64,000 bases of DNA from Streptococcus sp. Marseille-Q5986. Lineage in GTDB: Bacteria > Bacillota > Bacilli > Lactobacillales > Streptococcaceae. The stretch covers positions 1 through 64,000 of the forward strand of contig NZ_CAMPPY010000003.1 in assembly GCF_946902915.1 (NCBI RefSeq), read 5' to 3'. The stretch's first letter is position 1. Each line of letters starts with the position of its first letter. Shown here piece after piece: positions 5,896 to 59,888 of the stretch. The notes under the pieces are model-generated. The model ran no database searches, was not told the origin of the DNA, and was given only the letters and a program-made list of their open reading frames with translations. A program made the position numbers and the translations under genes.

Positions 5896-8119
5896 GAGTT
5901 TCCCTATTCCCCTAATCTATCTGAGCTTTTTGTTGCTTTGGTTTTACTACGCCATTTTCTCAGCATCCTATCTTGCTTTGTTGGGCTTCGTTTTTCTGCT
6001 AATCTGTCTCTTTATCCAATTTCCGTGGAAGTCTGCTAGCAAAGTTCTAGTGCTTTGCGGAATCTTTGCCTTCTGGTTTCTGTTTCAAACTTGGCAACAG
6101 AGTCAAGCTAGTCAAAACCTAGCGGACTCTGTTGAAAGGGTGCGGATTTTGCCTGACACTATTAAGGTTAATGGTGATAGCCTATCCTTTCGTGGTAAGT
6201 CTGATGGACGAATTTTTCAAGTCTATTATAAACTCCAGTCCGAGAATGAAAAAGAGCAATTTCAAACCTTAACAAACGTTCATGAGATAGAACTTGAAGG
6301 AAAACTTTCAGAACTAGAAGGGCAGAGAAATTTTGGTGGCTTTGACTACCAATCCTATCTGAAGACTCAGGGAATTTACCAGACTCTCAATATCAAAAAA
6401 ATCCAGTCACTTCAAAAGATTGGCAGTTGGGATATAGGAGAAAACTTGTCCAGTTTACGTCGAAAGGCTGTGGTTTGGATTAAGACGCACTTTCCAGACC
6501 CTATGCGCAATTACATGACAGGACTCTTGCTGGGACATCTGGACACCGACTTTGAGGAGATGAATGAGCTTTATTCCAGTCTAGGAATTATCCACCTCTT
6601 TGCCCTATCTGGCATGCAGGTAGGTTTTTTCATGAATGGATTTAAGAAACTTCTCTTGCGATTGGGCTTGATCCAAGAACAGTTGAAGTGGCTAACCTAT
6701 CCCTTTTCCCTTATCTATGCAGGTCTGACAGGATTTTCAGCTTCGGTCATTCGCAGTCTCTTGCAAAAGTTACTGGCTCAACATGGGATTAAGGGCTTAG
6801 ATAATTTTGCCCTGACTGTGCTTGTCCTCTTTATTGTCATGCCAAACTTTTTCTTGACAGCAGGAGGAGTCTTGTCATGTGCTTATGCTTTTATCTTGAC
6901 CATGACCAGCAAAGAAGGGGAGGGTCTCAAGGCTATTGCCAGAGAAAGTCTAGTCATTTCCTTGGGAATATTGCCCATTCTGTCCTTCTATTTTGCGGAA
7001 TTTCAACCTTGGTCCATCCTCTTGACCTTTGTCTTTTCCTTTCTTTTTGACTTGGTCTTCTTACCGCTCTTGTCTATCTTATTTGCCCTTTCCTTTCTAT
7101 ATCCAGTCATTCAGCTGAACTTTATCTTTGAATGGTTGGAGGGAATGATTCGCTTGGTATCACAGGTGGCAAGTAGGCCTCTAGTTTTTGGTCAACCCAA
7201 TACATGGCTGTTGCTGATACTGTTGTTTTCTTTGGCTTTGGTCTATGATTTGAGGAAAAATATCAAAAGAGCAGCTGGATTCAGCTTACTTATTGTGGTT
7301 CTCTTTTTCTTGAGCAAGCATCCACTGGAAAATGAAATTACCATGCTGGATGTAGGGCAAGGCGAGAGTCTTTTCCTACGGGATGTAACTGGGAAAACCA
7401 TTCTCATAGATGTAGGTGGCAAGGCAGAGTCAAATAAGAAAATTGAAAAATGGCAAGAAAAGGCGACGACCAGCAATGCACAGAGAAACTTGATACCCTA
7501 TCTAAAAAGTCGAGGAGTAGCCAAGATTGACCAGCTGGTTTTGACTAATACAGACAAGGAGCATGTTGGAGATTTGTTGGAGGTGACCAAGGCTTTCCAT
7601 GTGGGTGAAATTATAGTATCAAAAAGCAGTTTGAAACAGAAGGAATTTGTGGCAGAACTACAGGCGACTCAAACTAAAGTTCGTAGTGTGACAGTAGGAG
7701 AGAACTTGCCAATTTTCGGAAGTCAGTTAGAAGTCCTATCCCCAAGGAAAATGGGAGATGGAGGGCATGAAGACTCCCTAGTTCTGTATGGAAAATTCTT
7801 GGATAAGCACTTTCTTTTCACAGGCAATTTGGAGGAAAAAGGAGAGAAGGACTTGCTGAAGCATTATCCAGACTTGAAAGTAGATGTTTTGAAAGCTGGT
7901 CAACATGGTTCGAAACACTCATCAAGTTCAGCCTTTCTAGAACAGCTCAAACCAGAGATGACTCTCATCTCAGTTGGAAAGAACAATCGAACGAAACTCC
8001 CCCATCAGGAAACCTTGACACGATTGGAAGGTATCAAGAGTAAGATTTACCGAACTGACCAGCATGGAGCTATACGCTTTAAAGGATGGAATAGTTGGAA
8101 GATTGAAAGCGTTCGATAG
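5879..8119 (+). CDS. comEC: Competence DNA-import channel ComEC
   Basis: The 746-aa polytopic protein carries single-stranded DNA across the membrane. It has N-terminal membrane segments, an extracytoplasmic OB-like region (about 70-150), the conserved Competence core (LFALSGMQVGFF near residue 240) and a C-terminal metallo-beta-lactamase-like domain (from ITMLDVGQGESLFLRD). In that domain the usual HxHxDH metal motif reads TNTDKEHVGDL, so most metal ligands are absent, while GQHGSKHSSS is kept. The length is normal for streptococci. It is co-transcribed with comEA. Confidence 0.95.
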   Translation: MLQWTKSFPIPLIYLSFLLLWFYYAIFSASYLALLGFVFLLICLFIQFPWKSASKVLVLCGIFAFWFLFQTWQQSQASQNLADSVERVRILPDTIKVNGDSLSFRGKSDGRIFQVYYKLQSENEKEQFQTLTNVHEIELEGKLSELEGQRNFGGFDYQSYLKTQGIYQTLNIKKIQSLQKIGSWDIGENLSSLRRKAVVWIKTHFPDPMRNYMTGLLLGHLDTDFEEMNELYSSLGIIHLFALSGMQVGFFMNGFKKLLLRLGLIQEQLKWLTYPFSLIYAGLTGFSASVIRSLLQKLLAQHGIKGLDNFALTVLVLFIVMPNFFLTAGGVLSCAYAFILTMTSKEGEGLKAIARESLVISLGILPILSFYFAEFQPWSILLTFVFSFLFDLVFLPLLSILFALSFLYPVIQLNFIFEWLEGMIRLVSQVASRPLVFGQPNTWLLLILLFSLALVYDLRKNIKRAAGFSLLIVVLFFLSKHPLENEITMLDVGQGESLFLRDVTGKTILIDVGGKAESNKKIEKWQEKATTSNAQRNLIPYLKSRGVAKIDQLVLTNTDKEHVGDLLEVTKAFHVGEIIVSKSSLKQKEFVAELQATQTKVRSVTVGENLPIFGSQLEVLSPRKMGDGGHEDSLVLYGKFLDKHFLFTGNLEEKGEKDLLKHYPDLKVDVLKAGQHGSKHSSSSAFLEQLKPEMTLISVGKNNRTKLPHQETLTRLEGIKSKIYRTDQHGAIRFKGWNSWKIESVR

Positions 8120-8234: not shown

Positions 8235-8498
8235 ATGAAAAAATCAGCAAAAGTCGTTTTATTAGCTAGTTTGTTATCACTTGGTCTTTTTCAGTCTAGT
8301 GTATCTGCTAAAAGCGTTCTTAAAAGTTATCGGTATGATTGGAATATCTTCTATAGGTCTAGTATGAATTTCCATGGATATAGATATAGGGACATTCCGG
8401 AATGGTCTCATTATTACAGCTATTCTGAGTATAAAGTTGGCGGAGGCTGGAACTATGGTCGTTATGAGGTACTAAACCTCTACAGCGGAGGCTATTAA
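8235..8498 (+). CDS. Small exported Tyr/Gly-rich peptide, bacteriocin-like
   Basis: The 87-aa precursor has a clear signal peptide (MKKSAKVVLLASLLSLGLFQ up to about VSA-KS, residue 26). The mature part of about 61 residues has some fifteen tyrosines and no cysteine. The C-terminal VGGGWNYGRYEV resembles the GGGxWxYG motif of lactococcin 972-family bacteriocins, but the rest of that family's sequence is missing. The ATG at 8235 was preferred over the GTG at 8226 because the ribosome binding site AGGTG overlaps the latter. An ABC ATPase and permease follow, as for peptides with dedicated export or immunity. The function is not proven. Confidence 0.65.
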   Translation: MKKSAKVVLLASLLSLGLFQSSVSAKSVLKSYRYDWNIFYRSSMNFHGYRYRDIPEWSHYYSYSEYKVGGGWNYGRYEVLNLYSGGY

Positions 8499-48432: not shown

Positions 48433-50103
48433 ATGAAAACAGATATTGAAATCGCACAGAGTATTGAGTTGAAGCCAATTGTTGATGTTGTAGAGAAATT
48501 GGGTATTTCTTACGACGATTTGGAGTTGTATGGAAAGTACAAGGCTAAGCTTAGTTTTGATAAAATTCGTGCAGTTGAGAGCAATCCAGTTGGGAAATTG
48601 ATCTTGGTTACTGCCATCAATCCAACGCCTGCAGGGGAAGGAAAATCAACTATTACCATTGGTCTTGCGGATGCCTTGAATAAAATTGGCAAGAAAACGA
48701 TGATTACTATCCGCGAACCGTCACTTGGTCCAGTCATGGGGATTAAGGGTGGCGCAGCTGGTGGTGGTTACGCTCAAGTTCTTCCAATGGAAGACATCAA
48801 CCTCCACTTTACTGGAGACATGCATGCCATTACTACTGCCAACAATGCTCTTTCTGCCTTGATTGATAATCACTTGCACCAAGGAAATGAGCTGGGAATT
48901 GACCAACGTCGCATTCTCTGGAAACGTGTTGTGGACTTGAACGACCGCGCCCTTCGTCACGTGACTGTTGGACTCGGTGGTCCTCTTAACGGTATTCCAC
49001 GTGAGGATGGTTTCGATATTACCGTAGCTTCAGAAATCATGGCCATTCTTTGCTTGGCAACGGACATCGAGGACTTGAAACACCGTTTGGCCAATATCAT
49101 TATCGGTTATCGCTATGACCGTACGCCTGTTTCTGTTGGTGATTTGCAGGTTGAGGGTGCTTTAGCATTGATTTTGAAGGACGCTATTAAGCCAAACTTG
49201 GTTCAGACAATTTACGGTACACCTGCCTTTGTACACGGTGGCCCATTTGCCAATATTGCTCATGGTTGTAACTCTGTCTTGGCAACGACCACAGCCCTTC
49301 ACTTGGCTGATTACACAGTTACTGAAGCTGGTTTTGGTGCGGACCTTGGTGCTGAGAAATTCCTTGATATCAAGACGCCAAACTTACCAACGTCTCCAGA
49401 TGCAGTAGTCATCGTCGCAACACTTCGTGCCCTTAAGATGAATGGTGGTGAGGTTAAAGACGCTCTGACTGAAGAAAATGTAGAAGCAGTTCGTGCAGGT
49501 TTTGCCAACTTGAAACGCCATGTTGAAAATATCCGTAAGTTTGGTATTCCAGCAGTAGTAGCTATCAACGAATTTGTTTCTGATACAGAAGCTGAAATCG
49601 CAGCCTTGAAAGAACTCTGTGCTTCTATTGATGTTCCAGTTGAACTGGCTAGTGTTTGGGCTGATGGCGCAGAAGGTGGTGTAGCACTTGCTGAAACGCT
49701 TGTTAAGACTATCTCTGAAAATCCAGCCAACTATACACGTCTTTATGACAATGACCTTTCTGTCCAAGAAAAGATTGAAAAGATTGTCACTGAAATCTAC
49801 CGTGGTAGCGAAGTGAACTTTGAGAAGAAAGCTCAAACGCAAATCGCTCAAATCGTTCAAAACGGATGGGATAAATTGCCAATCTGTATGGCTAAAACTC
49901 AGTACAGTTTTTCTGACAATCCGAATGCACTTGGAGCGCCAGAAAACTTTGAAATTACCATTCGTGAATTGGTACCAAAATTGGGTGCAGGCTTCATCGT
50001 TGCCTTAACAGGTGATGTTATGACCATGCCAGGCCTTCCAAAACGACCTGCCGCTCTCAACATGGATGTTGAAAGCGATGGAACCGTTTTAGGATTGTTC
50101 TAG
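48433..50103 (+). CDS. fhs: Formate-tetrahydrofolate ligase
   Basis: The 556-aa enzyme makes 10-formyl-tetrahydrofolate from formate, ATP and tetrahydrofolate, feeding purine synthesis and initiator-tRNA formylation. It has the P-loop [19 protein letters not shown] (about 64-82), [20 protein letters not shown] and the C-terminal [15 protein letters not shown]. Normal length. It has a good ribosome binding site (AGAGGAG). A RelA/SpoT-domain gene starts 21 bp after its stop with no terminator between, so read-through is likely. Confidence 0.97.
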
Positions 50104-50124
50104 TATATTGAGAGATATAAAATT

Positions 50125-51099
50125 ATGGAAAAAAATTTGAAAGAAATATTGTCACAATTTGATTCAACTAAAAATAATTACGAGAGACTTTTAGAATATA
50201 TCGAAGCGACAATTAAAAGTCTTATGGAAAATGAAAAAATACAAATTCATGAAATTAAAGGAAGGATTAAAGATAGAGAAAGTTTAAGCAAAAAAATTGA
50301 AACTAAAGATTATAAGTATTCCAGTTTGTCAGAAATAACTGATATTTGTGGAATTAGAATTATTACATATTTTTCGGACGATGTAGATAAAATTGCTTCT
50401 TTGCTTGAAGAGGAATTTGATTTAGATCAGGACAATTCTATTGATAAACGAAAAACTCAAGATCCTACTAAATTTGGCTATGTATCTTTACACTATATTT
50501 TAAAATTAGGAGGAAGTAGAGCAGAATTAACTGAAAATATTAATTATAAAGAATTAAAATTTGAAGTTCAGATCAGGACTATTTTGCAGCATGCTTGGGC
50601 GGAGATAGAACATGACTTTGGATATAAATCTGATAATGATGTTCCTGAAAAAATTAGAAGAAGATTTTCAAGATTAGCTGGTTTAATTGAGTTAGCTGAC
50701 GATGAATTCATGGAAATTAAACGATATGAAAAGGAATATACTAATAGAGTTGAAGAAGGATTCAAAGAGAATTCTAAAAGTATAAAAATTGATTCTATAA
50801 GTATTTCAGCCTTATTAGAAAGTGAATCTTATATCAATTTTATTGAAGAAAATTATGATCAACATAATATAGAAATTAGGTATCCTGGTGGAAAATTTAA
50901 AGATGATAGAATTTCTAAAATTGTCAATTATTGTGAACAATTAGGTATTAAAACGATTGATGAATTGGAAAGTAAGTTCAAAAGTGAATTTCCAAATTAC
51001 TTTAGTAGATGGATTGAAGAAAAAAATAACTATTTTTATACTTGGAATATTACACCTTTACTAGAGATTCTTTATGATTTAAATAATTCAACTAGATAA
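50125..51099 (+). CDS. RelA/SpoT-domain protein, accessory alarmone synthetase-like
   Basis: The 324-aa protein carries the synthetase motifs RIKDRESLSKKI (47-58), ITDICGIRIITYF (71-83), KFGYVSLHYIL (116-126) and FEVQIRTILQHAWAEIEHDF (146-165). It lacks the hydrolase, TGS and ACT domains of long Rel proteins. After residue 200 it has a unique tail of about 120 residues. Family relatives make (p)ppGpp or, as toxic small alarmone synthetases, (p)ppApp or pyrophosphorylate tRNA. It is strongly AT-rich compared with fhs and pcrA, which suggests transfer. No separate antitoxin gene is beside it. Confidence 0.75.
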   Translation: MEKNLKEILSQFDSTKNNYERLLEYIEATIKSLMENEKIQIHEIKGRIKDRESLSKKIETKDYKYSSLSEITDICGIRIITYFSDDVDKIASLLEEEFDLDQDNSIDKRKTQDPTKFGYVSLHYILKLGGSRAELTENINYKELKFEVQIRTILQHAWAEIEHDFGYKSDNDVPEKIRRRFSRLAGLIELADDEFMEIKRYEKEYTNRVEEGFKENSKSIKIDSISISALLESESYINFIEENYDQHNIEIRYPGGKFKDDRISKIVNYCEQLGIKTIDELESKFKSEFPNYFSRWIEEKNNYFYTWNITPLLEILYDLNNSTR

Positions 51100-51122
51100 T
51101 CACGTTAAGTATTGTAAGAAGT

Positions 51123-51148
51123 CCCATCTATATCTGGATGGGGTTTTG
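51123..51148 (+). terminator. Terminator after the RelA/SpoT-domain gene
   Basis: CCCATC and GATGGG form a hairpin with a TTTT tail. A second inverted repeat, AAAATCC/GGGATTTT, lies near 51203-51221 before the pcrA promoter (TGATATAAT, core 51269-51274). Confidence 0.6.
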
Positions 51149-51307
51149 CGGTAAATTCCTAAACTAAGTTTCACCGCTAATCCAAGTGGAAGTTAGTCTG
51201 ATAAAAATCCTATGGGATTTTACTATCTGTCTAGTCTCTGTAAAGTTTCTATTTTCCCTGAATTCTGATATAATAGAAACATTGACTTCAAGAGTAAGGA
51301 AGAGAAA

Positions 51308-53599
51308 ATGAACGCATTATTGAATGGAATGAATGACCGTCAAGCTGAGGCGGTGCAAACGACAGAAGGTCCATTATTGATCATGGCCGGGGCTGGTTCT
51401 GGAAAGACTCGAGTTTTGACTCATCGTATTGCCTACTTGATTGATGAAAAGATGGTCAATCCTTGGAATATCTTGGCCATAACCTTTACCAATAAGGCTG
51501 CGCGTGAGATGAAGGAGCGTGCCTATGGGCTCAACCCAGCCACCCAGGACTGTCTGATTGGGACCTTTCACTCCATGTGTGTTCGTATATTACGTCGCGA
51601 TGCGAATCATATTGGCTACAATCGGAACTTCACCATTATAGATCCTGGTGAACAGCGAACCCTCATGAAACGCATTCTCAAGCAGTTAAACTTGGATCCG
51701 AAAAAGTGGAATGAACGGACCATTTTGGGAACCATTTCCAATGCTAAGAATGATTTGATTGATGATGTGGCCTATGCTGCCCAAGCTGGAGATATGTACA
51801 CGCAAATCGTGTCCCAGTGCTACACTGCTTACCAAAAAGAGCTTCGTCAGTCTGAGTCTGTTGATTTTGATGATTTGATTATGTTGACCTTGCGTCTCTT
51901 TGATCAGAATCCTGATGTTTTGACCTATTACCAGCAAAAATTCCAATATATCCACGTTGATGAGTATCAAGATACTAACCATGCCCAGTACCAACTGGTC
52001 AAACTCTTAGCTTCACGCTTTAAAAACATCTGCGTGGTCGGTGATGCGGACCAGTCTATCTATGGTTGGCGTGGGGCTGATATGCAGAATATCTTGGATT
52101 TTGAGAAAGATTACCCTCAAGCCAAGGTCGTTTTGTTGGAAGAAAATTATCGTTCAACTAAAACCATTCTTCAAGCAGCAAACGACGTTATCAAAAACAA
52201 TAAAAACCGTCGTCCTAAGAATCTCTGGACCCAGAATGCCGATGGGGAGCAAATCGTTTATTATCGCGCAAATGATGAACAAGACGAGGCTATTTTTGTA
52301 GCAAAAACCATCGATGAACTTGGTCGTAGTCAAAACTTCCTCCACAAGGATTTTGCGGTTCTTTATCGGACTAATGCACAATCCCGTACCATTGAGGAAG
52401 CCCTGCTCAAGTCCAATATTCCTTATACTATGGTTGGAGGGACCAAGTTCTACAGCCGTAAGGAAATTCGCGATATTATTGCCTACCTTAATCTTGTTGC
52501 TAATTTGAGTGACAATATCAGTTTTGAGCGTATTATCAACGAGCCTAAACGTGGAATTGGGCCAGGTACTGTTGAGAAAATACGTGACTTTGCTAGTTTG
52601 CAAGATATGTCTATGCTGGATGCTTCAGCAAATATCATGTTATCAGGAATCAAGGGTAAGGCAGCTCAGTCTATCTGGGAGTTCGCCAATATGATTTTGG
52701 ATTTGCGGGAGCAACTGGACCAATTAACCATCACCGAGCTGGTTGAGGCTGTTCTAGAAAAAACAGGTTATGTCGATATTCTCAATGCTCAAGCGACCTT
52801 AGAGAGCAAGGCTCGGGTTGAAAATATCGAAGAGTTCCTATCTGTTACCAAGAACTTTGATGACAATCCTGATAGTCAAGAAGAAGAAACAGGTTTGGAT
52901 AAACTCAGTCGTTTCTTGAATGACTTGGCTTTGATTGCAGACACAGATTCGGGCAGTCAGGAGATATCAGAAGTGACCTTGATGACCTTGCACGCTGCTA
53001 AGGGACTCGAGTTCCCAGTTGTCTTTATCATTGGGATGGAGGAAAATGTCTTTCCACTTAGCCGTGCAGCTGAGGATCCTGATGAGCTAGAAGAGGAACG
53101 CCGTCTGGCTTATGTAGGGATTACGCGCGCAGAAAAGTTCCTCTATTTGACCAATGCCAACTCACGCTTGCTTTTTGGTCGTACTAGCTACAATCGTCCA
53201 ACTCGTTTTATTAATGAAATCAGTTCGGACTTGCTTGAGTATCAAGGTCTGGCTCGTCCGGCGAATACTAGCTTTAAGGTATCTTATAGCAGTGGTGGGA
53301 TTGCTTTCGGTCAAGGTATGAGCTTAGCTCAGGCCCTTCAAGAACGAAAACGCAATGCTGCACCAAGCTCTATCCAGTCAAGTGGTCTCCCATTTGGACA
53401 GTTTGCGGCAGGAAATAAAAAAGATTCAAGCGATACCAACTGGTCTATTGGGGATATTGCCCTTCACAAAAAGTGGGGGCAAGGGACAGTCCTTGAAGTT
53501 TCAGGCAGCGGCGCTACTCAGGAACTGAAAATCAATTTCCCAGAAGTAGGTCTGAAAAAACTCTTAGCCAGTGTTGCCCCAATTGAGAAAAAAATCTAA
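51308..53599 (+). CDS. pcrA: ATP-dependent DNA helicase PcrA
   Basis: The 763-aa UvrD-type 3'-5' helicase has the motif I AGAGSGKTRVLTHR (about 28-41), motif II VDEYQDTNHAQYQL, GDADQSIYGWRGA (III), VMTLHAAKGLEF-like motif V (LMTLHAAKGLEFPVVF) and motif VI YVGITRAEKFLYL. It removes proteins from DNA and acts in repair and plasmid rolling-circle replication. The C-terminal tail has a Tudor-like RNA polymerase contact (IGDIALHKKWGQGTVLEVSG). Normal length. Confidence 0.96.
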   Translation: MNALLNGMNDRQAEAVQTTEGPLLIMAGAGSGKTRVLTHRIAYLIDEKMVNPWNILAITFTNKAAREMKERAYGLNPATQDCLIGTFHSMCVRILRRDANHIGYNRNFTIIDPGEQRTLMKRILKQLNLDPKKWNERTILGTISNAKNDLIDDVAYAAQAGDMYTQIVSQCYTAYQKELRQSESVDFDDLIMLTLRLFDQNPDVLTYYQQKFQYIHVDEYQDTNHAQYQLVKLLASRFKNICVVGDADQSIYGWRGADMQNILDFEKDYPQAKVVLLEENYRSTKTILQAANDVIKNNKNRRPKNLWTQNADGEQIVYYRANDEQDEAIFVAKTIDELGRSQNFLHKDFAVLYRTNAQSRTIEEALLKSNIPYTMVGGTKFYSRKEIRDIIAYLNLVANLSDNISFERIINEPKRGIGPGTVEKIRDFASLQDMSMLDASANIMLSGIKGKAAQSIWEFANMILDLREQLDQLTITELVEAVLEKTGYVDILNAQATLESKARVENIEEFLSVTKNFDDNPDSQEEETGLDKLSRFLNDLALIADTDSGSQEISEVTLMTLHAAKGLEFPVVFIIGMEENVFPLSRAAEDPDELEEERRLAYVGITRAEKFLYLTNANSRLLFGRTSYNRPTRFINEISSDLLEYQGLARPANTSFKVSYSSGGIAFGQGMSLAQALQERKRNAAPSSIQSSGLPFGQFAAGNKKDSSDTNWSIGDIALHKKWGQGTVLEVSGSGATQELKINFPEVGLKKLLASVAPIEKKI

Positions 53600-59088: not shown

Positions 59089-59216
59089 TTTTTCAACCTT
59101 TTCTATATCTTTGAAAGCGATTTATGGTATAATGTACAATGTATTTATTGTATACGAATGTACTAAAAAAATCAAAGATTTTCGACAGAGCAATCAAACA
59201 TTACAAGGGAGAAAGT

Positions 59217-59888
59217 ATGACCATAGAATGGGAAGAATTTTTAGATCCTTACATTCAGACTGTGGGTGAGTTAAAGATTAAACTTCGGGGGATTCGCAAA
59301 CAGTATCGTAAGCAAAACAAGCATTCTCCGATTGAGTTTGTAACGGGTCGTGTCAAACCGATTGAAAGTATCAAAGAAAAGATGGCTCGTAGAGGAATCA
59401 CTTATGCCAGTCTGGAACATGATCTACAAGATATTGCGGGGTTACGTGTCATGGTTCAGTTTGTTGATGATGTTAAAGAAGTAGTTGAGATTCTACGTAG
59501 GCGCCAAGATATGAGAATCGTTCAGGAACGAGATTATATCACTCATCGTAAGGCTTCAGGTTATCGTTCTTATCACGTGGTTGTCGAGTACACGGTTGAT
59601 ACGATTAGCGGAGCTAAGACGATTTTGGCGGAAATTCAAATACGTACTTTAGCCATGAATTTCTGGGCTACGATTGAGCACTCGCTCAATTATAAATACC
59701 AGGGCGATTTCCCAGAAGAAATCAGGAAAAGACTGGAAATTACGGCCAAAATAGCCTATCAACTGGATGAAGAAATGGGTAAGATTCGTGACGATATACA
59801 GGAAGCGCAGGCTCTCTTTGATCCATTGAGCAGAAAACTAAACGATGGTATAGGAAATAGTGACGATACAGATGAAGAATACAGGTAA
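59217..59888 (+). CDS. relQ: Small alarmone synthetase RelQ
   Basis: The 223-aa (p)ppGpp synthetase has the motifs [12 protein letters not shown] (44-55), [11 protein letters not shown] (72-82), [14 protein letters not shown] (112-125) and [20 protein letters not shown] (138-157). No hydrolase domain. The ATG at 59217 has AAGGGAG before it; the frame is open further up but lacks a ribosome site. A TGGTATAAT promoter lies at about 59122-59132, with an imperfect palindrome (TACAATGTATTTATTGTA) after it. It overlaps nadK by 17 bp. Confidence 0.94.

Follow-up and report, generated by a model that had tools for sequence, protein, structure and literature searches.

Gene content and domain structure

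The window analysed here (64,000 nucleotides, positions 1 to 64,000 of contig NZ_CAMPPY010000003.1 of Streptococcus sp. Marseille-Q5986) encodes on its forward strand a small alarmone synthetase-like protein of 324 aa (50125..51099, +, ATG start), recognised as an open reading frame (ORF) with Pfam and PHROG matches and assigned to the phrog_9640 family. The gene lies between fhs (48433..50103, +; an ORF named in the initial annotation), which ends 21 bases upstream, and an ORF whose product we take, from its sequence, to be a pcrA/uvrD-type helicase (51308..53599, +; hereafter pcrA), which starts 208 bases downstream; no other same-strand ORF of ≥60 aa is present between fhs and pcrA. The RelA/SpoT-domain gene that had been reported beside fhs is confirmed as an ORF with a single RelA_SpoT synthetase domain, at residues 46–171 (50260..50637, +; Pfam and alignment; E 2.9e-24, 85.9 bits against a cut-off of 27). 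This is the sole Pfam domain above cut-off: no HD hydrolase domain was found by Pfam, as first noted, and a glycoside-hydrolase entry (E 0.09) falls under its own cut-off. RelA_SpoT above cut-off and the absence of HD place the protein among the small alarmone synthetases; against the NCBIfam YjbM cut-off of 320 bits it scores 81.9.

The contrast in composition with both neighbours that had been pointed out is borne out (26% vs. 44% GC): GC and GC3 are 25.8 and 15.4% for the target gene, 44.3 and 37.4% for fhs, and 44.0 and 43.8% for pcrA. Just 3' of the gene is a terminator-like hairpin followed by TTTT (51110..51153, +), identified by folding energy (−18.9 kcal/mol, z −3.8, for the stretch 51110–51160); a scan for consensus promoters and terminators, with a stricter T-run rule, did not output this hairpin and returned nothing usable.

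The source genome holds five RelA_SpoT loci, namely long Rel, relQ (59139..59888, +; a profile match, used here as a comparison gene outside the element), a RelP-like synthetase on contig 4, the target gene, and one marginal match. The target gene is therefore extra, as had been stated from the presence of a normal relQ. The RelP-like synthetase (181 aa; L003 1384–1929, −) has a long branch in the tree described below, and the same 3.4 kb includes a gene that presumably encodes a type I restriction methylase. The marginal ORF (186 aa; L005 1486–2046, −; contig 3 near 272 kb; 29.1 bits against a cut-off of 27) adjoins a streptomycin adenylyltransferase-family gene (L005 2115–2903, −).

Recent acquisition between fhs and pcrA

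The target protein is present in three of 147 sampled genomes of the genus (E <1e-20): the source genome, G093, and G128. In two of the 147 (source and G093) the gene lies between fhs and pcrA; the G128 copy is elsewhere, after a gene that we take, from its sequence, to be leuS. Of 59 genomes searched, 46 gave the end of fhs; 30 loci were examined, and the pcrA start was within reach in seven of them. Six of these seven fhs–pcrA sites are empty, and the seventh is the source genome. A survey across strains, which the initial annotation had proposed, thus gives a gene that is not conserved at this site in all relatives. At the empty sites, a spacer of 182–330 bases follows the fhs stop codon and includes an inverted-repeat sequence after fhs; the source locus is without that sequence, and a segment of approximately 50117..51230 (+; edges by eye from the alignment) replaces the spacer.

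Between the source genome and G093, 15 of 960 bases of the target gene differ (98.4% identity; 9 silent and 6 replacement differences), whereas the flanks are 90.6% (fhs, 1400 bases) and 88.3% (pcrA, 1350 bases) identical; in 100-base bins, divergence falls at the edges of the gene and climbs again past it. Because two species share the gene at 98.4% DNA identity against 88–91% for the flanks, its transfer was recent, and the target gene is a recently, horizontally acquired single-gene element. An A run right after the start codon (50129–50135) has seven A in the source and six in G093 (L007); in G093 the ATG frame stops after four codons, and a full-length frame is open from a TTG. The one-A difference may reflect slippage, decay, or assembly error.

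In Streptococcus sinensis (L071), a relative at 72% identity is likewise located after fhs. Downstream of this inserted gene, the 3' end of fhs is repeated without interruption over 148 bases (L071 8974–9121; 92% identical), which looks as if the gene arrived by insertion-duplication at fhs. The empty spacers of L045 (G031) and L048 (G029) carry an extra repeat-like insertion of 85–150 bases, presumably similar to the pneumococcal small repeats. The fhs–pcrA spacer accepts insertions.

Family membership, distribution, and phylogeny

The best family of the target protein is phrog_9640 (annotated as unknown function; E 1.9e-89, residues 3–289 of 324), which is also matched by 72 of 72 aligned relatives. 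A genome scan gave at least 592 pattern matches, which included at least 533 relatives, and 80 relatives were retained; a scan of viral contigs (IMG/VR) with the family alignment gave 46 loci, the single target sequence having given no match there. In all, 126 relatives were fetched and seven were dropped (two cut by contig ends, and five with an ORF of <280 aa by start choice), so that 119 relatives plus the target protein were used. The hosts include Bacillota, Pseudomonadota, Bacteroidota, Actinomycetota, Campylobacterota, cyanobacteria (Nostoc), Acidobacteria, a Saccharibacterium, an archaeon (Methanoregula), and phages, where the phyla are those we take the organism names to denote. Since 103 of the 120 family proteins are 345–372 aa long, we regard the streptococcal form (320–324 aa) as short at the C-terminus.

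Distribution is uneven. The gene is fixed in Exiguobacterium (38/38 genomes), a class-wide survey gave 47 positives among 398 genomes, with 37 of the 47 within one family, presumably that of Exiguobacterium, and a close version occurs in 14 of 5426 E. coli genomes. The phrog_9640 gene is very widespread, and its annotations say no more than 'GTP pyrophosphokinase' or 'hypothetical protein'. In open-access titles and abstract openings (a body of literature that most subscription papers lie outside), no paper among the matches listed treats the family as a toxin or in defence, and the terms alarmone and ppGpp do not occur in the available text of a survey of Streptococcus thermophilus defence systems (PMC11514479).

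In a tree of 63 rows, including 30 from the family, 22 RelP/RelQ-like, and nine long Rel, all 30 family rows are split off together by a branch whose support is 100/92 when gp42 of a Mycobacterium abscessus prophage is included and 95/89 when it is left out. The RelP/RelQ-like rows form one group (22/22; 96/84) from which the family rows are excluded. The place of CapRel in this tree is unsure, because its branch length is 3.99. By this phylogeny, phrog_9640 appears as a family separate from RelP/RelQ and from long Rel. Judged from sequence, it is a large, little-studied family of known enzyme class, the subfamily being distinct from the characterised ones examined.

Catalytic domain and acceptor side

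The AlphaFold2 (AF2) model of the full target protein has a pLDDT of 92.4 and a pTM of 0.84. Its first ~205–208 residues match RelP/RelQ structures with Z of 16.9–19.0, followed by Bacillus subtilis Rel (15.4), CapRel (13.8), SaEAS (8vx3; 12.7), Tas1 (12.2), and FaRel2 (8.2). The family profile likewise matches RelQ at E 1.2e-20 and CapRel at E 3.8e-8, the latter alignment ending at about residue 210.

Residues invariant in 72 aligned rows include R47, K49, D73, R78, K108, G118–Y119, E147, Q149, W158–H163, and Y167–K168. The initial annotation held that all synthetase motifs are present; this is right for the catalytic residues, which are intact, but not for two motifs near the acceptor site, which are replaced. 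The first concerns the G-loop (F117–G118–Y119; 50473..50481, +; motif count), in which the position two before the Tyr is Phe in 110, Val in 5, Ile in 2, and Leu in 1 of the 118 family rows (of 120) with a readable motif. The same position is Ser or Asn in 22/22 RelP/RelQ-like sequences and Asn in 23/26 of the long-Rel set, the other three of which, including the marginal L005, have no readable motif. The second is [KR]DY, which occurs in 0/120 family rows vs. 20/22 RelP/RelQ-like and 24/26 long-Rel sequences. CapRel-SJ46 has Ser at the G-loop position and Y-D-Y in place of [KR]DY. In the RelSeq structure, that Asn reportedly contacts the acceptor base. In the available text of a paper on exported synthetases (PMC12691689), the residues said to bind ATP include an Asn that may be the same one. 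With the motifs near the acceptor site replaced, the acceptor is not predictable by homology, and this is a concrete reason to try substrates other than guanine nucleotides.

The C-terminal tail as a module

Residues 200–324 (50722..51096, +) form a tail that is predicted to be mainly helical and, by rate comparison, is fast-evolving in the family. Modelled alone, it is mainly helical (pLDDT 84.4), and in the whole model it has at most two isolated three-residue strands. A Foldseek search gave no match to a known fold at E <0.001, an outcome that is uninformative by itself. Among the weak matches listed for the tail (50722–51096), most are AAA+ proteins, with a repeated resemblance apparently to the lid part (HslU, ClpX; best E 0.84), and the best Z is 5.8 (TRIP13), too weak to use. 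The tail of ~120 aa had been called novel. It is indeed present, and the structural match to RelP, RelQ, and long Rel extends no further than about residue 208; it is not unique to this protein, however, since its features recur in relatives. Conserved tail features of the family are I-D-x-x-S-L, G-I-x-T-I-x-x-L, and G-I-S-x-F-Y-L, with no invariant columns.

Pairs of loci at the same site separate change in the tail from change around it. In these comparisons flank identities are for DNA and gene identities for protein, for which reason only large contrasts between flank and gene count. In two P2-like phages with the gene at the same site (L157/L189), the flanks are 97 and 96% identical (2861 and 2718 bases), the catalytic part 69%, and the tail 30%; for L160/L162, also at one site, the values are 87 and 92%, 82%, and 37%. 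The same-site pair L156/L157 is ordinary (flanks 93 and 96%, catalytic part 94%, tail 84%). In Psychrobacter L114/L132, with the upstream flank alone testable, the catalytic part is 91% and the tail 37% identical. DNA homology ends near codon 193 (L160/L162), 199 (L088/L162), or 201 (L114/L132), at codon 229 instead in L157/L186 and L085/L114, and runs through the whole gene in L085/L132.

The Psychrobacter L132 gene is a mosaic, with a catalytic half like that of L114 and a tail like that of L085. In 25-residue windows, the identity of L132 to L114 is 84–100% up to about residue 200 and 20–56% after, whereas against L085 it is 48–88% identical before about residue 200 and 60–84% after; the tails of L114 and L085 are 24–56% alike. 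As this mosaic joins near residue 200, at least one tail exchange took place at the domain border. The rate of tail change is 1.5–2.4 times that of the catalytic part in Exiguobacterium (25 of 38 sequences) and 1.9–2.6 times elsewhere. A fast tail was considered as proof of an arms race and rejected: the Exiguobacterium control gave about the same ratio, so tail speed alone shows no arms race. Among nine Exiguobacterium pairs with both flanks, the flanks are 69–93%, the catalytic part 88–99%, and the tail 79–100% identical. A gene that is fixed in this genus, is accompanied by a conserved downstream gene (see below), and is about as conserved as its flanks points to a settled chromosomal role there. 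On the evidence of these alignments, the family tail is a separately changing, faster-evolving module that in one case was clearly exchanged. For mapping what the tail may recognise, the pairs of alleles at one site and the mosaic from Psychrobacter offer ready material.

Neighbouring genes and mobile carriers

The claim that no antitoxin gene lies beside the target gene holds in the window and, as regards a recurrent gene, at the 119 relatives. Neighbour clustering at the 119 loci (1089 ORFs of ≥40 aa, up to five per side, from simple greedy ORF calling) gave no recurrent partner or antitoxin gene apart from host-element genes. The commonest same-strand neighbour at one position occurs at 7/119 loci, all of them Exiguobacterium, and the next at four and three; the commonest opposite-strand neighbours, at eight and seven loci, are P2-like phage genes. 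A same-strand ORF lies ≤60 bases upstream at 34 of 118 loci, and is <150 aa in 22 of these; a hidden antitoxin was rejected after clustering at the 119 loci gave chiefly opposite-strand P2-like tail genes at fixed positions.

The commonest same-strand neighbour, a conserved gene of ~147 aa, is directly downstream in Exiguobacterium L128, L133, L138, L139, L145, L148, and L149 and one ORF further in L126, for a total of eight Exiguobacterium loci examined. A 298-aa ORF, perhaps spurious, has a fixed position at four phage loci, and a ~68-aa protein, which we take to resemble a phage XtrA-type protein, is encoded directly upstream at three loci.

P2-like phages, filamentous phages, and plasmids carry members of the family as cargo. 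In E. coli S88, the gene is antisense within a P2-like prophage, flanked by baseplate assembly gene V and a gene for virion morphogenesis; in a Bacteroides phage-like plasmid, the relative is again antisense, with the terminase side on one flank and an HNH gene on the other. A 3.5-kb plasmid of Klebsiella has four annotated genes, one of which is a relative, a more distant relative is carried by a Vibrio filamentous phage, and a plasmid gene of Cetobacterium, a genus of Fusobacteria, matches over the first 210 residues. In Vibrio L078, the relative is bracketed by direct repeats of ~120 bases (about 7094–7214 and 8304–8423), with a third copy further upstream; these repeats resemble integron attC (VCR-type) sites. 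At the phage loci L168, L180, and L191, near-identical terminator-like hairpins of 32–36 bases occur on both sides of the gene.

Comparison with characterised systems

The nearest solved catalytic domains are those of RelQ and RelP (YjbM, YwaC); these proteins are without such a tail, retain the [KR]DY and Ser/Asn motifs in the proportions given above, and are separate in the tree. CapRel-SJ46 (identity checked by a full-length match to PDB 7ZTB) is similar in architecture, being a single phage-borne polypeptide with an N-terminal synthetase and a C-terminal module, and the QHAWA stretch is common to CapRel and the family. CapRel-SJ46 belongs, however, to phrog_4773 (E 1e-144) and gives no phrog_9640 match at E 1e-5, while the target protein matches phrog_4773 only at E 1e-13 over residues 18–160, and the structural match to CapRel is weaker than that to RelP/RelQ. 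According to the available text of PMC9712102, the CapRel-SJ46 tail is a three-stranded pseudo-zinc-finger sheet with YXXY, whereas the prediction for the target tail gives mainly helices and no zinc-finger-like sheet. No YXXY neutralising motif occurs after residue 200 of the target protein, and some YxxY occurs after residue 215 in 50/120 family rows. The kinship with CapRel that the initial annotation had considered, with structure prediction as a proposed check, is therefore rejected as family membership, and CapRel is retained as an analogy only. No CapRel turned up in a search of 299 genomes from the phylum, an outcome made uninformative by the lack of a positive control.

The toxSAS enzymes (FaRel, FaRel2, PhRel) are likewise accessory RelA_SpoT-fold enzymes outside the stringent-response core, but have a cognate antitoxin or immunity gene (in the available texts of PMC12691689 and PMC11782079), and none recurs for phrog_9640. 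SaEAS genes are isolated, with no immunity gene, and the SaEAS catalytic part is toxic in the cytoplasm; unlike the target protein, which has a tail after the catalytic domain, SaEAS is exported, sparing its maker (as far as described in the available text of PMC12691689). The fpRel subgroup comprises synthetase-only RSH proteins of Firmicutes, alpha- and beta-proteobacteria, and Fusobacteria (available text of PMC3153485; Atkinson et al., 2011), the main text of which does not use the word prophage. It is set beside phrog_9640 by taxonomic overlap (Bacillota, Pseudomonadota, and the Cetobacterium plasmid gene), phrog_9640 being found also in Bacteroidota, Nostoc, Methanoregula, and phages; that the two are the same family is a guess. 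The PADLOC model PDLC04999 for PDC-S33 matches the target protein (E 4e-19, residues 4–159 only). It was rejected as evidence of a role in defence: the model also matches housekeeping Rel and RelQ in 21/21 genomes, which makes the match uninformative.

Proposed function and alternative explanations

We envisage phrog_9640 proteins as mobile single-protein effectors of alarmone type, each with a regulatory tail that can be exchanged, and see their probable use in conflict with phages; we give this reading close to an even chance. The protein would be a stand-alone RelA/SpoT-fold pyrophosphokinase with a C-terminal module of mainly helical predicted fold. The enzyme would move pyrophosphate from ATP onto the 3'-OH of an acceptor, such as a purine nucleotide or tRNA, and the tail may keep it in check until a ligand made by a phage or under stress binds the tail and frees the enzyme, whereupon growth and phage production would stop. 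Transcription may be by read-through from fhs, given a start 21 bases past the end of fhs and the missing inverted-repeat sequence, and would end at the gene's own terminator. The positions as cargo and the turnover of alleles are both accounted for by use in phage conflict; counted against it are the fixed copy in Exiguobacterium, where the tail also changes faster, the ordinary L156/L157 pair, the break at codon 229 in L157/L186, and the (p)ppGpp contributed by fpRel, possibly an enzyme of this kind. The self-contained synthetase with its tail as control element that was first proposed thus survives in part: the gene is extra, acquired, and antitoxin-less, and the tail in its family behaves as a separate module that in one case was clearly exchanged, but the kinship with CapRel does not stand. 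With a tail that changes fast and is at times swapped, the protein is a promising candidate for a single-protein switch that would stop growth in the fights between bacteria and phages. If this is true, it would be a second solution, unrelated to that of CapRel, to combining a toxin of alarmone type with its own control in a single polypeptide.

A more specific form of this proposal, which we consider unlikely, is that phrog_9640 proteins are independently evolved, phage-triggered one-protein growth switches with a remodelled acceptor pocket and a helical off-module unrelated to that of CapRel; as their specificity of recognition shifts, alleles would be exchanged at the boundary between the domains. 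As growth switches with a remodelled pocket, they might use a new acceptor.

The strongest competitor, a tenable though somewhat improbable one, is an accessory (p)ppGpp synthetase like RelP and RelQ that adds stringent-response capacity, with a tail that senses an ordinary metabolite or a host protein or serves in oligomerisation, and with mobility as hitch-hiking. A plain stress synthetase explains the fixation in Exiguobacterium and the nearness to RelP/RelQ, to which both the family profile and the structural scores are closer than to CapRel; if fpRel is the same family, the contribution of fpRel to (p)ppGpp in vivo in Pseudomonas syringae DC3000 (available text of PMC7146990) points the same way. 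Such a synthetase accords less well with the position of the family apart from RelP/RelQ and long Rel in the tree, with or without gp42, with the absence of [KR]DY from all rows and the replacement of Ser/Asn in 118 of 120, with the sporadic occurrence in Streptococcus and E. coli, or with antisense carriage in phages accompanied by allele turnover.

That the protein is a fused toxin–antitoxin of CapRel type, with the tail as antitoxin and sensor of capsids in the manner of CapRel and with tRNA as the target of pyrophosphorylation, seems very doubtful: the joining of an N-terminal synthetase to a variable tail in a single ORF, the rank of CapRel as the top-scoring toxSAS structure, and the common QHAWA stretch speak for it, but the two belong to different protein families, the target tail is predicted to be mainly helical and has no YXXY, and the profile alignment with CapRel stops at about residue 210. 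Least probable of all is that the gene is a passenger, neutral or in decay, with no function in its host, as might be suggested by the shortened A run of G093 with its early stop in the ATG frame and by the very low GC, since the full-length frame is intact in the source and, from TTG, in G093, silent differences outnumber replacements between these copies, and the active-site residues are intact.
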